64,000 nucleotides of DNA from Lachnospiraceae bacterium AC2029 (GTDB lineage: Bacteria; Bacillota; Clostridia; Lachnospirales; Lachnospiraceae), in the NCBI GenBank assembly GCA_000703065.1, contig JNLK01000001.1, positions 682,001-746,000 of the forward strand, in the 5' to 3' direction. Made by a program: the position numbers and the translations under genes. Positions 15,340 to 20,286 of the stretch are shown in pieces. The notes beneath the pieces were generated by a model. The model was not told the origin of the DNA. It did no database searches and saw only the letters and a list, made by a program, of their open reading frames with translations. Position 1 is the first letter of the stretch. Every line of letters starts with the position of its first letter.

Positions 15340-15450
15340 TCAATTTCTCTTTTTGTCTTTCATATGATAGACAATCTTCCTCGTCACCGGAAACCCGCAG
15401 TTGTCACATACACCACCGGTCATATCTCCACCACATCTCGGACATTTCAT
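15340..15450 (-). CDS. 36-residue zinc-ribbon peptide at the end of the hxs operon
   Basis: A very short gene that standard length cut-offs miss. AGAGGAGGT lies six bases before the ATG, and the product contains two zinc knuckles, MKCPRCGG (Cys 3 and 6) and VCDNCG (Cys 15 and 18), ending in a basic tail. Spacing C-x2-C-x8-C-x2-C is a complete four-Cys zinc ribbon. It starts 22 bases after hxsA stops, on the same strand, before the hairpin at 15280. Its role is unknown; it could be an accessory factor for HxsA maturation, a regulator or simply a conserved operon passenger. Confidence 0.75.
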   Translation of the reverse strand: MKCPRCGGDMTGGVCDNCGFPVTRKIVYHMKDKKRN

Positions 15451-15472
15451 ACTCTTGTACCTCCTCTTTCAA

Positions 15473-16177
15473 CTAAGTTCCCTTGTTCTTATTATTTCCG
15501 CTATTCTGTTTCTTTTTACGATAAGCATAATAGCCACCGCCGGTTGCTGCAGCCGCCAGCGCAGTACCACCAATAGCACCGGCCACCGTTCCACCGGAAG
15601 AATCTCCACCAGTTGTGCCATCACTTACAGAATCCAAATGACGCACCGGCGCTTCTGTGGTAGATGTAGTTGTCGGTGCCTCTGTAGTTTCTGTCGTTGC
15701 TATCTTTGTCGTTGCCTCGGTCGCTTCTGTCGTTGCTACCTTTGTCGTAGCCTCGGTCGCTTCTGTCGTTGCTACCTTTGTCGTCGCCTCAGTAACTCTT
15801 GCACTATTACTGTGTGTTGAATGTGTTGCGTGATTCGAATGCGTCGAATGAGTACTGTGCGAATTCGAATGAGTACTATGCGAGCTATGAGAATTATGAG
15901 TGTTATGTGTCGCATGATTATCGTGTGTGCTATGTGAAGATGAATGGGACGAATGACTGCTATGCCCACCATTTGATGATCTGTGTGAAGAATGCGACCT
16001 ATGTGATGAGTGTGATCTATGTGATCTATGCGCAGCATACGCATCATCGCCAAGCAGCATTCCCAGCACTAAAAGCATGCCGCCAACTACTATCGCTTTA
16101 TTTCGCGTAACACTACCATCTTCATCTTCGAAAAAATCCATAATTGTTTTCTTTATCTTAGGAAATCTCTCATCCAT
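15473..16177 (-). CDS. hxsA: His-Xaa-Ser repeat protein HxsA (substrate of the hxs system)
   Basis: A 234-residue repeat protein, the presumed substrate of the radical SAM enzymes encoded just upstream. Residues 1-20 are a charged leader. Residues 27-43 are one hydrophobic segment directly after DEDG (18-21), as in Flp-type prepilins, and AYA at 46-48 could alternatively be a signal peptidase I site. Residues 50-125 are dominated by H-x-S and H-x-T triplets, about 25 His. Residues 128-177 are TEATTKVAT-type repeats (Thr/Glu/Ala). Residues 194-216 are a Gly/Ala-rich hydrophobic stretch followed by RKKK, a likely second membrane anchor. The 9-base gap to hxsB places it in the operon. The modification made is not known from sequence. 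Confidence 0.85.
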   Translation of the reverse strand: MDERFPKIKKTIMDFFEDEDGSVTRNKAIVVGGMLLVLGMLLGDDAYAAHRSHRSHSSHRSHSSHRSSNGGHSSHSSHSSSHSTHDNHATHNTHNSHSSHSTHSNSHSTHSTHSNHATHSTHSNSARVTEATTKVATTEATEATTKVATTEATEATTKIATTETTEAPTTTSTTEAPVRHLDSVSDGTTGGDSSGGTVAGAIGGTALAAAATGGGYYAYRKKKQNSGNNKNKGT

Positions 16178-16186
16178 AAAATGCCT

Positions 16187-17584
16187 CTATTCTAACCATG
16201 ACTGAAAAACCCGATTTATTGTATCATCATCTTTTCGAATCTGTTCAAAAAGAGTGTTCATAATGCCTTTATAAGCTGCACATCTGAAATCCTTTTTGTT
16301 TTTCGAATACAGATCATTCGTTGATGCATAATTCACGATAGGACATATTCCACAATATGGTTGATACACACAATCATTACACTTGGGAACGCCCTCAATT
16401 ATCGAAGATTTGCAAAGTGTCTTACAGACAGGCGAATTGACTAAATCAGAATAAGAATTCGAATGAACATCTCCCAGCTTAAACGAATAGTCATTCATTT
16501 CAGACATCATCCTGCCTTCATCGCATGTATAAACACTCCCGTCATAGTAATAACTCAATTGACCCAGCGTAGCGCCACATGGCGATCTTAACTCCATATA
16601 ATTGTATGAAAAATTCTGGAGTATCTTTTTCAAAAAATATAATGCATGCGTCTCAACAAATTTAACACCTTGAAGATTTAACTCCATAATATACTCGAAT
16701 ATGTTCCTATAAAAATCCAGAAACTCTTCCTCAGAATATCCAACATCTTCCCACGATGATTCAGCCAGTCCCAACGGTGTCAATGGTCTGATAAATACAT
16801 GATGAATCCCCAGTTTTCGATACTCATCAACAATCTCTTTGTAGTATTTCAGGCTTTTTCGAGTAGTAGTCTGAATTGCACTTACATTAATACCTTTATT
16901 CTGAATATATCGTATTTTATCTATGACATCAAAATAGCTTCCTCCTGAACGATCCCTATATGGCCGATTATAATCATGCACTATCTGCGGTCCATCAAGT
17001 GAAGTACAGATATTTACACCATGGGAACACAGGAAATCCAGCATTTCATCAGTCATTCTTGTTAGATTTGTAACAATTGTGTATTCGATATGCTTATCTA
17101 TATTCCTCTCTTCACTATATAACACCATATCCTTAACAGTGTCGAAATTAAGTAAGGGTTCACCCCCCTGAAACTCAAATGTGATCCACTTGTTCGGCGA
17201 TTGTAAAGCAACATCTATCGCTTTGCGTCCGGTTTCCGGATCCATCATACCATCTAAAGAGGAATCCCTGCTATGCGCCTGGCAGTATCTGCAATCCATA
17301 TTACACGCGTTCGTAACAGCAAATATATGAAGCGATGTACCGCTAAAACAATATGATTTCATATCTTGAATTTTCGCAGCCCATTGTTTAACAAAGGACT
17401 CTAATCCCCCATCAATGACAAAGCCTTTTTCGACCAACTCATAATAGAACTTATTGGCATTATTAATCCGATTTTTACACAAATCAGAATACGACTCATT
17501 GTCAATAAAAGCATACCTTCCAAAATCGTTCGTAATAAGGAAGCTCCCATCCGGCATTTTTTTAGAGTTAAAATAATGAATCAT
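16187..17584 (-). CDS. hxsB: His-Xaa-Ser system radical SAM maturase HxsB
   Basis: A 465-residue radical SAM/SPASM enzyme. The [4Fe-4S]-SAM motif is CNMDCRYC (Cys 94, 98 and 101), followed by EFQGGEPLLNF (SAM-binding GGEP at 140-143). The C-terminal SPASM region carries the auxiliary-cluster cysteines: SPCGATLGQ, YTCDEGR, VCKTLC, KCNDCVYQPYCGICP. The N-terminal 70 residues resemble the leader-recognition segment of this family. Length and architecture fit HxsB. It should modify HxsA in the cytoplasm through radical chemistry. Its start overlaps the 3' end of hxsC by 17 bases, so translation is coupled. Confidence 0.85.
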   Translation of the reverse strand: MIHYFNSKKMPDGSFLITNDFGRYAFIDNESYSDLCKNRINNANKFYYELVEKGFVIDGGLESFVKQWAAKIQDMKSYCFSGTSLHIFAVTNACNMDCRYCQAHSRDSSLDGMMDPETGRKAIDVALQSPNKWITFEFQGGEPLLNFDTVKDMVLYSEERNIDKHIEYTIVTNLTRMTDEMLDFLCSHGVNICTSLDGPQIVHDYNRPYRDRSGGSYFDVIDKIRYIQNKGINVSAIQTTTRKSLKYYKEIVDEYRKLGIHHVFIRPLTPLGLAESSWEDVGYSEEEFLDFYRNIFEYIMELNLQGVKFVETHALYFLKKILQNFSYNYMELRSPCGATLGQLSYYYDGSVYTCDEGRMMSEMNDYSFKLGDVHSNSYSDLVNSPVCKTLCKSSIIEGVPKCNDCVYQPYCGICPIVNYASTNDLYSKNKKDFRCAAYKGIMNTLFEQIRKDDDTINRVFQSWLE

Positions 17585-18701
17585 CTTTCACTTCCTTCTC
17601 GATTGGAAATACTTTGGGTTTATAGAAATCCTTCGTTGCCGTAAAAATACCACAACAGAATTCTTTCATATAACACTCTGAACACTCATCATAAAAATTG
17701 GATTTATATGCCGAAATACTCTTCTTTGCCAAAGGCCAGAATTCTTTTTTTATCATGCAATAAGGAAAATTATATAATGCAACATCAATTCCATTTTTCA
17801 TCAATAGTTTTATTGCCTGTTCTGCACTTGCAAATGCTTCCTGATATGAAATAACAACTTTATCACTGTTAACTGCACAATTCCCTCTCATTTCAAGCCC
17901 GATAAAGTGTACAATTCTAACCTTGTGAAAGAATCTGATGATCAATTGGGCTATCCCAATCATATCGTCCATGTTCAGTTTACTTATTACTACCCGGATT
18001 TCGAGTTCAATGCCGGCACTGATCACATTGGCAATTCCTCTTAGAGTTTGAGCAAACCCTCCCGGGGACTGTGTAATACTGTCATGTCTTTCCGGTGTAC
18101 TTCCATGAATCGGAATTGCTATTCTAAGGCGATCAGTTTTTTCTTTAACAAATTTTTCAAAAAAGCCTTTATCTCCAAGCGTTCTTCCATTTGTTAATAA
18201 TAGGATTTTCGCATCCTGGAAATGATCAACCGCTGTTCTGTAAACTTCAATAAAAGCATCATCACCAATCAGTGTCGGTTCTCCCCCGGTGATAGTGAAA
18301 AAATACAGATCTTCAGGCATATACTCTATAATTGTTTTAATGTGTTCTATCGGCATATCAACACGTCTACGTTCATTATCACCAGCCGGACACATGATAC
18401 AATTAGAGTTACACCTTGCTGTCGTAGCTATTCCCGCATCACCCTCTACATCCGAATACCATCGATAAATAAGTCCGTTTTCAGATATTTCAAGGACATC
18501 ATCCTCAGAAAAAACTTCAAAATCCTCCTGTGTCTGATCATCCATGTGGACTTTCAGGTCATCCGGATAAAAGGTGAACATACCTTCAGCTATCTCACCG
18601 ACACAGATTCCCAATTCTAATAACTTTGCTGTTTTTTCCTTTGATCTGGATACAACAAAGATCCTGTACCTATCATTATACCCTTTTAAAAACCTGACCA
18701 T
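17568..18701 (-). CDS. hxsC: His-Xaa-Ser system radical SAM maturase HxsC
   Basis: A 377-residue radical SAM enzyme with the cluster motif CNSNCIMC (Cys 97, 101 and 104), TITGGEPTLIG (139-143 GGEPT) and ISKLN strands of the partial TIM barrel. A Cys-rich C-terminus (YDECSECYMKEFCCGIF) may bind a second cluster. The first 85 residues form an N-terminal domain typical of HxsC, which differs from HxsB in being shorter and lacking a full SPASM set. It overlaps the prepilin peptidase gene by 16 bases and hxsB by 17 bases. It presumably acts on HxsA together with HxsB. Confidence 0.85.
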   Translation of the reverse strand: MVRFLKGYNDRYRIFVVSRSKEKTAKLLELGICVGEIAEGMFTFYPDDLKVHMDDQTQEDFEVFSEDDVLEISENGLIYRWYSDVEGDAGIATTARCNSNCIMCPAGDNERRRVDMPIEHIKTIIEYMPEDLYFFTITGGEPTLIGDDAFIEVYRTAVDHFQDAKILLLTNGRTLGDKGFFEKFVKEKTDRLRIAIPIHGSTPERHDSITQSPGGFAQTLRGIANVISAGIELEIRVVISKLNMDDMIGIAQLIIRFFHKVRIVHFIGLEMRGNCAVNSDKVVISYQEAFASAEQAIKLLMKNGIDVALYNFPYCMIKKEFWPLAKKSISAYKSNFYDECSECYMKEFCCGIFTATKDFYKPKVFPIEKEVKDDSLF

Positions 18702-19726
18702 TGCATATTCCTTATAATAAAGTAGCCAAAACCAATTACCATGAATACCACAAAAGGTATTTTCCTAACAACCAACAATTCATCCGAACCCCGATTTGTC
18801 TTTGACCATCTTTTAATACTTTCTATTTCTGACTCTTTGATCCTCGCTGACATATCCTCGCTGATATTATCGGGAAGTCCTTTTACTCTTGAATTTGCAA
18901 ACATCAATACCGATCCTGACGACAAGATCATTCCCGGCTGAAGTTCATCAACTTTTATCCTCTTGTAGTTATGTCTTCCCGCCCAAATTCTGAGAGCAAA
19001 CACCAAAAATGCAATTAAATAATTGCCCCATGCGAATTGAAAGTTATTCGCACTTCCATTCAATATTCGTACCAAGGCCACAATAACAAAAGCTAATATC
19101 GTTACTATCTTGATAACATTTGGAATCATTGTGATCGTTTTCCACATCAGCAGGACAAAGAAAACATTTGCATACAAAAAGACCACTTGGTAACTGACAT
19201 ATGCTTTGGGGAATATCAACCTGAACCCCCACTGCATTAAGCTGATCGATGCAACCAGAAACACCCAATTAAATAATTGAGTCCTAATATTCATTTTGGA
19301 AAAAAATCCAGTCTTTCGTGTCTCTGTATTGCCTTTAACCGATAAAACAACGCTTTCTATAACAATATAAATAAACGCTAACGAATATATATAAATCAAT
19401 ATATAAAAAATCGATGCATATGCCACCTCTTTATATGCGCTGAAAGGAACCATCATTGCCAGCACTATAAAAAGCTTTGTATCTCCTCCGCCCCATATTT
19501 TTAAGAAATACATAAAAAATGAGCATATACACGCCGCAATAACCTGTACCAGAAACAACGCGAGTCCTTCCCCTGACACCTGAATGAAATACACAATCTG
19601 AAGACACGTCGTAATAATAAAGGCGTACAGAACCAGGAGATTGGGAACCCTATATGCTTTAAAGTCATAAACTATACTTAGAATTCCGACCACAAGGAAT
19701 TCCATAACCAAAAAATACTCAATCAT
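18686..19726 (-). CDS. A24-type prepilin peptidase embedded in the hxs operon
   Basis: A 347-residue membrane protein with about nine hydrophobic segments. The two catalytic aspartates of A24 aspartic prepilin peptidases are visible: Asp21 in DFKAYRVPN and Asp82 in IWGGGDTKLF (the GxGD motif). Downstream of the peptidase core (about 1-200) is an extra C-terminal membrane part and a cytoplasmic strand-rich segment (KRIKVDELQPGMILS) resembling the tail of clostridial homologues. The start at 19726 (ATG) overlaps the upstream gene by 8 bases; a GTG one codon earlier is possible. No other pilus genes lie nearby, so its substrate is probably HxsA, whose leader looks prepilin-like. That is inference. 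Confidence 0.75.
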   Translation of the reverse strand: MIEYFLVMEFLVVGILSIVYDFKAYRVPNLLVLYAFIITTCLQIVYFIQVSGEGLALFLVQVIAACICSFFMYFLKIWGGGDTKLFIVLAMMVPFSAYKEVAYASIFYILIYIYSLAFIYIVIESVVLSVKGNTETRKTGFFSKMNIRTQLFNWVFLVASISLMQWGFRLIFPKAYVSYQVVFLYANVFFVLLMWKTITMIPNVIKIVTILAFVIVALVRILNGSANNFQFAWGNYLIAFLVFALRIWAGRHNYKRIKVDELQPGMILSSGSVLMFANSRVKGLPDNISEDMSARIKESEIESIKRWSKTNRGSDELLVVRKIPFVVFMVIGFGYFIIRNMQWSGF

Positions 19727-19940
19727 CACACCAGTCCCTGGACATATTCACCAGATCAATTACATAGTTTTCAAACTCCTTCATGGTTTTGGCAACTTCA
19801 TAAAGAGAATTTTCAAAAACGCAGATAAACCCCGTTTCATCCCGATTGATTGAAATACTGCAAATTGAGGAAAACGCTTTTACCGCATCCATTATATGGT
19901 TTTCTCTATATACATCTGATGTCAAATATAGTTTATTCAT
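19719..19940 (-). CDS. Small HxsD-like protein
   Basis: A 73-residue protein. Its pattern (a Tyr-containing first strand YLTSDVYREN, a helix, SISINRDE, a strand GFICVFEN, then KEFENYVIDLVNMS) follows that of HxsD but is shorter and lacks the C-terminal Arg-rich helix. It may be a paralogue acting as peptide-recognition partner for one of the two radical SAM proteins. The start at 19940 overlaps the stop of hxsD by 8 bases; a TTG nine bases upstream also opens the frame. It overlaps the prepilin peptidase gene too, so all three are translationally coupled. Confidence 0.55.
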   Translation of the reverse strand: MNKLYLTSDVYRENHIMDAVKAFSSICSISINRDETGFICVFENSLYEVAKTMKEFENYVIDLVNMSRDWCDD

Positions 19941-20286
19941 TCCGGTCAAACCAATCCTTCATCGCTGAATCATCATAAACATCCGTATCTATCTTCTCAT
20001 CATCACTATCATAAATCATGGACGAAGCCATTGCTCTTGCAAATAAGATCTCACGAATGTTTTTCGTCTCTTCAAAAACCAATTCCCTCATTGCCTGTTC
20101 AATAAGTTCATTGTGTATTTCCTTTTCAATATCGTCATCGTTCTCTTCATCTTTTGACTCAATTTCGATATAGTAATTATCGATATCCGAGGATAAATGG
20201 ACATAATAATCATCCGTGAATTTATAACAAGTTTTTAATAATACCTTTCTAGAATATAATTCTTTTTCTATCTTTATGCGCATCAT
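19933..20286 (-). CDS. hxsD: His-Xaa-Ser system protein HxsD
   Basis: A 117-residue acidic protein matching the HxsD pattern: LYSRKVLLKTCYKFTDDYYV (first strand with Tyr-x-Phe), YYIEIESK, then EIHNELIEQAMRELV and TKNIREILFARAM (the conserved helix with Ile-Arg and a terminal Ala). The family is always small and always accompanies HxsB and HxsC; it is thought to assist maturation, but its exact role is unproven. It is the first gene of the tightly overlapping hxs set, with GAGAGG eight bases upstream. An acidic tail (about 92-117) follows the conserved part. Confidence 0.75.
   Translation of the reverse strand: MMRIKIEKELYSRKVLLKTCYKFTDDYYVHLSSDIDNYYIEIESKDEENDDDIEKEIHNELIEQAMRELVFEETKNIREILFARAMASSMIYDSDDEKIDTDVYDDSAMKDWFDRNE

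Follow-up and report, generated by a model that had tools for sequence, protein, structure and literature searches.

A His-Xaa-Ser operon with its own A24 (prepilin-type) peptidase gene in Lachnospiraceae bacterium AC2029

An hxs operon that encodes an A24 peptidase

The window analysed here is a stretch of 64,000 nucleotides (positions 682001–746000 of contig JNLK01000001.1) in the 3.86 Mb genome (G000) of Lachnospiraceae bacterium AC2029. On its minus strand, at 15473–20286, lies an operon of the His-Xaa-Ser (Hxs) radical SAM system in the order hxsD, hxsD-like gene, A24 peptidase gene, hxsC, hxsB, and hxsA3, and it was confirmed that this operon has its own A24 peptidase gene. Computational analysis established the operon, its conservation, the fold and catalytic pair of the peptidase, its co-occurrence with a particular precursor design, and a fixed spacing within that precursor. 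The founding paper on the Hxs system, by Haft and Basu, is reportedly from 2011. The genes of the operon and the key positions of the peptidase are as follows.

19933–20286, minus strand: hxsD, 117 amino acids (TIGR03976, 89.1 bits; cut-off 50)
19719–19949, minus strand: hxsD-like gene, 76 amino acids (NF038315, 61.4 bits; cut-off 41)
18686–19729, minus strand: two-domain A24 (prepilin-type) aspartic peptidase, 347 amino acids from GTG or 346 from ATG (PF01478, 35.4 bits; cut-off 26.5)
19664–19666, minus strand: codon of the first catalytic Asp, Asp22 (GTG numbering) of DFKAYRVPN
19481–19483, minus strand: codon of the second catalytic Asp, Asp83 (GTG numbering) of WGGGDTK
18686–18970, minus strand: C-terminal domain and last helix of the peptidase (alignment A4)
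17568–18701, minus strand: hxsC radical SAM maturase, 377 amino acids (TIGR03977, 274.4 bits; cut-off 267.9)
16187–17584, minus strand: hxsB radical SAM/SPASM maturase, 465 amino acids (TIGR03978, 520.8 bits; cut-off 370)
15473–16177, minus strand: hxsA3 His-Xaa-Ser repeat protein, 234 amino acids (NF038309, 108.5 bits; cut-off 65)

HxsB and HxsC are encoded next to each other, each above its curated NCBIfam cut-off, and HxsD and an HxsA-type repeat protein are also present, which identifies the locus as a His-Xaa-Ser system. Both the Radical_SAM and the SPASM domain were matched in HxsB. The AlphaFold2 model of HxsD (predicted local distance difference test, pLDDT, 81.5) displays a strand-helix-strand-strand-helix arrangement, and its best Foldseek matches were mostly de novo and ferredoxin-like folds, at E 0.03 or worse. 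A role of HxsD as a recognition element of the kind known from ribosomally synthesized and post-translationally modified peptides (RiPPs) was considered on this model and forms no part of the interpretation.

An earlier reading of this DNA, made from the letters alone (the sequence-only reading), had placed HxsD, two radical SAM maturases, a His-Xaa-Ser protein, and an A24 peptidase in one operon, and all of these products score over their family cut-offs. Its description of the genes as overlapping holds from hxsD to hxsB, where successive genes share 11–17 bases, but hxsA3 starts after a 9-base gap. The HxsD-like gene at 19719–19949 was not separately listed there.

Recurrence of the peptidase gene

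HxsB scored over its cut-off in 3 of 295 genomes of the same order (that of the window, G277, and G249), and in all three the peptidase gene is located directly upstream of hxsC. A scan of genome contigs with an HxsB alignment yielded 16 loci (L044–L059), from which L059, a distant radical SAM match with 21% identity, was left out. The 12 Gram-positive loci in this set (L044–L055, with L054 from G277 and L055 from G249) all carry the peptidase, as do two further loci, L062 (G437) and L084 (G695). Altogether, the peptidase gene was found beside hxsC in 15 of 15 distinct HxsA3 loci (the window, L044–L055, L062, and L084), a count that rules out its chance insertion. The functional pairing of a His-Xaa-Ser system with a prepilin peptidase, as put forward in the sequence-only reading, is strongly supported. 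The loci vary in detail: the L047 contig holds just the C-terminal part of the peptidase, the L049 copy ends early (319 amino acids), hxsA3 is placed ahead of hxsD in L053, and L053 and L055 have no separate HxsD-like gene. One Gram-positive HxsB locus, that of G869 (L087), has no peptidase. Its hxsB is broken by an in-frame stop; judged by eye, the locus has a short open reading frame (ORF) that looks like hxsC, and a neighbouring ORF resembles the C-terminal part of a classical HxsA, not HxsA3.

Classical-type loci on plasmids served as the contrast. Fifteen such loci from Proteobacteria, Cyanobacteria, Bacteroidota, and one spirochaete were inspected out of 544 plasmid records with an HxsB-like match, and no peptidase was found in any of the 15 using the profile pep17 at E 1, in stretches extending 4–5 kb on each side. 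The HxS proteins of the classical type show, by eye, a signal-peptide-like start, a spacer of some 30–60 residues, and then the repeats; no E-x-G-type leader was seen by eye in the proteins of the 15 loci, the start of the L196 protein not being judgeable. An 'EEG' pattern match in L036 was not counted, as it is really S-D-D-A behind a signal-peptide-like start.

The pairing extends to three or more bacterial phyla. In the phylum to which the window's genome belongs, 398 genomes were searched; HxsB (E 1e-60) was found in two and the C-terminal domain of the peptidase (A4) in the same two, one of which, G000, also contributed to A4. The co-occurrence counts are biased in that the alignments A4 and A7 derive from peptidases linked to hxs loci, each of the 15 A7 rows coming from an HxsB genome in the sample under search. 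In 294 Elusimicrobia genomes, HxsB (E 1e-60) was present in 76 and the peptidase domain (E 0.001) in 71, with both in 68, HxsB alone in 8, the domain alone in 3, and neither in 215 (Fisher p 1.5e-53, a value that ignores phylogeny). Among the HxsB matches listed, the two lie less than 5 kb apart in at least 35 of the 68 genomes with both, less than 15 kb apart in at least 46, and on one contig in at least 52. The absence of a peptidase from other hxs loci, which the sequence-only reading regarded as telling against the pairing, was thus seen in the 15 classical plasmid loci and G869 but not in the 15 HxsA3 loci or in 68 of the 76 Elusimicrobia genomes.

Three Elusimicrobia loci of the first scan (L056–L058) have HxsB with no peptidase directly adjoining; in the L056 genome, the gene cluster that holds hxsB also encodes, at a distance of 7.3 kb, a two-domain A24 peptidase of 406 residues whose gene overlaps one for a radical SAM protein (L088). 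In 40 Elusimicrobia stretches from 39 genomes, which represent high-scoring HxsB places and not a random draw and many of which are cut by contig ends, a two-domain peptidase lies inside 14, in one case truncated where the stretch ends. The L153 peptidase gene overlaps radical SAM genes on either side, which among NCBIfam families match HxsC and HxsC4 best, with scores short of the cut-offs. In alignment, the Elusimicrobia peptidases share both Asp motifs with the Gram-positive ones and resemble them in their C-terminal motifs. Elusimicrobia genomes often hold two to four copies of HxsB, and some of the loci have many radical SAM genes.

HxsB and the peptidase also show related histories. Across 14 loci, their patristic distances correlate with a Mantel r of 0.87, a value reached in 0 of 5000 permutations. 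Both trees contain the pairs window and L044 and L045 and L046 (starred) and a four-locus Butyrivibrio group. The trees disagree in part: the window and L044 are joined by L062 in the HxsB tree (93/94) and by L052 in the peptidase tree (81/88), where the window peptidase has a long branch. The actinomycetotal L051, an Eggerthellaceae locus, pairs with L084, from the genus of Butyrivibrio MC2013, in both trees with moderate support (85/88 and 93/92, not starred), which hints at operon transfer between phyla.

It could be asked whether the peptidase, although its gene is stably linked to the operon, is a passenger working for the pili of the genome and not for HxsA. In favour of this, different systems can share or exchange prepilin peptidases (PMC6668835). 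Against it, of 16 distinct hxs genomes (18 handles, the classical-type G869 included), 13 (15 handles) have a PF00437 pilus ATPase over the cut-off and three, those of L044, L048, and L049, have PF00437 (T2SSE) matches only below it and one A24 match each, located at the hxs operon; the L048 and L049 genomes are metagenome-assembled genomes (MAGs) and may be incomplete, and that of L044 carries no MAG label. Moreover, many of the remaining hxs genomes encode a separate A24 peptidase away from the operon. Given the correlated distances and these single-A24 genomes, together with the linkage in every HxsA3 locus, a clade-wide passenger is extremely improbable.

In the window itself there is neither a PF00437 match nor a second A24 match, and in this respect the earlier statement that no pilus genes are near is accurate. 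The genome outside the window nevertheless contains one further A24 peptidase and PF00437 matches over the cut-off at four places, near which type IV pilus-like and Tad-like gene sets were recognized by eye. One pilus-like locus encodes a 139-residue protein without an A24 domain (L071:12840-13259), which we take to resemble the N-terminal cysteine domain of PilD; the other A24 peptidase lies elsewhere (L035:5469-6266).

Several small genes adjoin the operons. Immediately downstream of hxsA3 in the window, a 36-residue ORF with two CxxC pairs (a zinc ribbon; 15340–15450, minus strand) falls within the range from 15340 given in the sequence-only reading; a single pattern search found no similar ORF in the other 14 loci. 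Of 14 Gram-positive loci in a comparison, 8 have homologous MORN-repeat-like proteins (labelled by eye and pattern) adjoining hxsA3, but the window has none; a second common neighbour gene lies near hxsA3 in 3 of 14.

MORN-like neighbours: L044:5370-6365, L047:3755-4612, L049:6123-7424, L051:5414-6238, L052:4259-5176, L053:2965-3771, L055:5446-6387, L062:5321-6214
Second common neighbour: L044:6934-7956, L055:8053-9114, L062:2925-4034

The peptidase and the HxsA3 precursor

Both catalytic aspartates, the second within GxGD, are kept in 29 of 29 hxs-linked peptidases covering both regions; the L047 copy, cut at the contig start and without both Asp regions, was left out of this count. Asp22 and Asp83 from the GTG start are the Asp21 and Asp82 that the sequence-only reading had named, numbered from the ATG one codon on. 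PF01478 matched 12 of the 13 peptidases of alignment A5 (window included) at E 1 or better, the exception being the cut L047 copy. Among seven further relatives, L160 and L088 scored over the gathering score, L084, L123, L152, and L143 scored below it (19.0–24.9), and the L062 peptidase gave no PF01478 match at E 0.1. Weak matches to PF06847 (Arc_PepC_II, the archaeal A24 C-terminus) were obtained for 4 of 13 copies (best E 0.00063); the peptidase of the window gave none at E 1, and that of L062 scored 14.2 bits vs. a gathering score of 29.9. Among NCBIfam families, FlaK_Arch was weakly matched by three and EppA by one of the 13 aligned peptidases; the window peptidase matched no family at E 1, and no family was found for the L152 peptidase either.

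The AlphaFold2 model of the window peptidase, built from 13 sequences, had a pLDDT of 82. Its closest structure in the PDB, according to VIA-align, was FlaK (3s0x), with a Z score of 11.9 over 164 residues and a root-mean-square deviation of 3.2; this score lies under the level of about 13 advised by the VIA-align notes for helical models and well above the next row (Z 5.0). Foldseek returned nothing for the model at E 0.001. Because FlaK is the best fold match and several copies weakly match PF06847, this bacterial protein appears to be an A24 enzyme of archaeal type. At A24 cleavage sites, the residue at −1 is usually glycine and sometimes alanine. An archaellin became an EppA substrate after its residues −2 to +2 were swapped (PMC4390842), and Tad systems are reported to descend from an archaeal system similar to the EppA-dependent pilus (PMC6668835).

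The HxsA3 precursor of the window is divided as follows.

16115–16177, minus strand: HxsA3 residues 1–21, leader ending in E-D-G, predicted peptidase site after Gly21 (E-x-G in 15/15)
16034–16114, minus strand: HxsA3 residues 22–48 (exactly 27 residues), six mostly polar residues, hydrophobic segment, and A-Y-A (predicted signal peptidase I site)
15797–16033, minus strand: region of His-Xaa-Ser/Thr repeats, the predicted target of the radical SAM enzymes, read from the sequence, end approximate
15521–15583, minus strand: C-terminal small hydrophobic segment ahead of RKKK, possible membrane anchor, picked out by eye

The peptidase goes with one precursor design, namely a leader ending in E-x-G, a hydrophobic segment, A/V-x-A/G, and the repeats. 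All 15 HxsA3 proteins have in common an N-terminal segment (approximately FPKIKKSIxxFL), E-x-G, six mostly polar residues, a hydrophobic segment from +7, A/V-x-A/G, and repeats in this order, and in each of them 27 residues lie between the glycine of E-x-G and the end of A-x-A. The 13 aligned copies, window included, all match NF038309 (E 0.001), and their Glu19 and Gly21 are invariant. The pattern of a Sec signal peptide, with A/V at −3 and A/G at −1 behind a hydrophobic core, was also found in 15 of 15. The window leader reads FFEDEDG-SVTRNK, followed by the hydrophobic stretch and DAYA-AHRSH, in line with the earlier description of DEDG ahead of a hydrophobic helix with Asn-Lys at positions 5 and 6. 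In the alignment of 13 copies, L048 was the sole other one in which a hydrophobic C-terminal end like that of the window protein could be made out by eye. The L045, L046, L050, and L054 proteins share a C-terminal domain with repeated F-Y-A/Y-Y-A type motifs, where the window protein has the hydrophobic segment and RKKK instead.

A comparable leader occurs in Elusimicrobia. The HxsA proteins of L056–L058 begin with a leader reading FLTSEEG or FLNSEEG, behind which comes a hydrophobic segment. Of the 40 stretches, 30 contain an ORF that combines a SEEG or SEEA leader with such a segment, and L134 has this arrangement as part of a longer ORF; SEEA is the variant of L137, L138, and L146. These 31 leader-bearing stretches come from 30 genomes, 29 of which contain the peptidase domain. 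Neither the peptidase nor a leader-type ORF is present in the L121 and L132 stretches.

The layout of the leader, which resembles what we take to be that of Flp prepilins, together with the A24 family of the enzyme and the type IV pilus-like and Tad-like gene sets of the window's genome, could indicate that HxsA3 is a pilin-like subunit that is cut at E-x-G, retains its hydrophobic segment, and carries the repeats in or on a filament. However, the window HxsA3 has no match to a pilin family in Pfam at E 1, the Glu at +5 of type IV/Flp prepilins occurs in 0 of 15 HxsA3 leaders, the T2SSE ATPase is not over the cut-off in three hxs genomes, and a conserved A-x-A stands behind the helix. Such a subunit is very unlikely. 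On the pilin-family, ATPase, and Glu5 results, a pilus operon or pilin was rejected as the principal interpretation, and the Flp-like layout was not upheld as the sign of a pilin.

Another order of events would have signal peptidase I cut first at A-x-A, after which the A24 enzyme, a GxGD protease, would clear the remnant of leader and signal peptide within the membrane, as a signal peptide peptidase does. The rule of small residues at −3 and −1 holds in 15 of 15 HxsA3 proteins and the best fold match, FlaK, is a GxGD protease, both of which agree with this order. It leaves unexplained, however, why E-x-G stands at a fixed distance in all 15 and why the 15 classical loci, whose precursors seemingly have signal peptides, contain no peptidase; we consider it unlikely. 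The sequence-only reading had also regarded signal peptidase I cleavage at AYA as evidence against a peptidase cut. Because the AYA site is equally conserved and located at a fixed distance, cleavage there and cleavage at E-x-G do not exclude each other.

Proposed leader removal and relation to known systems

We propose that the A24 peptidase is probably a core part of a variant Hxs operon and removes a maturation leader by cutting after E-x-G. HxsB and HxsC, with HxsD, would modify the His-Xaa-Ser repeats in the cytoplasm, and the N-terminal segment of HxsA3 (approximately FPKIKKSIxxFLxDEEG) would be the recognition leader for the maturases. On the cytoplasmic side of the membrane, the A24 peptidase may then cut behind E-x-G, before or during export, so that the leader is taken off. 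The remaining 27 residues, with a short polar or basic stretch, a hydrophobic core, and A-x-A, resemble an ordinary Sec signal peptide. Signal peptidase I could subsequently free the repeats outside the cell; if it made no cut, they would remain membrane-bound. A more tentative extension, which we hold to be less probable than leader removal as such, is that the cut acts as an export licence, the leader ahead of the signal peptide holding the precursor at the radical SAM enzymes until the A24 cut makes the 27-residue signal peptide the new N-terminus.

Several observations weigh against this proposal. The A/V-x-A/G site is present in all 15 HxsA3 proteins, so signal peptidase I alone could process them. 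The residue after the predicted cut is N, S, or T in HxsA3 and mostly K in Elusimicrobia and, together with positions 5 and 6, is unlike that of pilins. Three Elusimicrobia genomes have the peptidase domain without HxsB (E 1e-60), and seven stretches (L140, L149, L151, L152, L153, L157, and L159) have HxsB and the peptidase with no leader-type precursor ORF. Conversely, the leader occurs with no peptidase in the fetched stretch in L058 and in 24 of the 31 leader-bearing Elusimicrobia stretches (7 of 31 have one), and in G1191 (L146, with a SEEA leader) no match to the peptidase domain was found anywhere in the draft genome. In view of L058 and these 24 stretches, the E-E-G motif may serve maturase binding instead of cleavage. 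Taken to its end, E-x-G would be a docking motif alone and the peptidase would cut another substrate or another place in HxsA, with which the SEEA variants would also agree. Against this, the peptidase domain is present somewhere in all but one of the genomes behind the leader-bearing stretches, and a −1 residue of either G or A is in keeping with A24 sites; we consider a docking motif alone quite improbable.

If leader removal by the A24 peptidase is correct, it would, to our knowledge, be the first use of a prepilin-type peptidase as the leader peptidase of a radical SAM-modified protein. The known range of prepilin-type peptidases would then reach beyond filament subunits to the maturation of modified peptides, and engineered peptide pathways would gain a protease that removes leaders at the cytoplasmic face. 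A dedicated leader peptidase predicts the exact bond to look for and offers a way to ask which form of the precursor the radical SAM enzymes act on. Furthermore, two precursor designs can be separated by whether a leader stands ahead of the hydrophobic segment. The recurrence of the pairing in distant bacteria with the same kind of front segment suggests an undescribed trimming and export route for the modified protein.

Among the matches listed in Creative Commons-licensed text of PubMed Central (PMC), no paper was found that connects a prepilin peptidase with Hxs or with any other radical SAM system for peptides. No description of the Hxs product was found among those matches either, including PMC9062424, where the available part names the genes only and credits the Hxs system to Haft and Basu. 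The pairing is likely to be new to print, although this is not proved.

Compared with the known Hxs system (HxsA/A2/A3/A4, HxsB, HxsC, and HxsD in NCBIfam), the operon has HxsB, HxsC, HxsD, and HxsA3 over their cut-offs and differs by the A24 peptidase as a fixed extra part, absent from the 15 classical plasmid loci. Like the systems with RiPP leader peptidases, it has a protease gene within a cluster for radical SAM modification of peptides; a word search in PMC10885120, a review of RiPP leader proteases, found neither 'prepilin' nor 'A24'. Flp/Tad prepilins, processed by the TadV peptidase, have what we take to be a similar D-E-E-G leader immediately ahead of one hydrophobic helix, whereas HxsA3 has no Glu5-Tyr6 and no pilin family match, and carries A-x-A behind the helix and His-Xaa-Ser repeats in place of a pilin body. 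The archaeal preflagellin and prepilin peptidases FlaK and EppA are similar in the A24 domain, the catalytic Asp pair, and the FlaK fold; in contrast to them, the bacterial peptidase described here is encoded with radical SAM maturases and not with archaellin or pilus genes.

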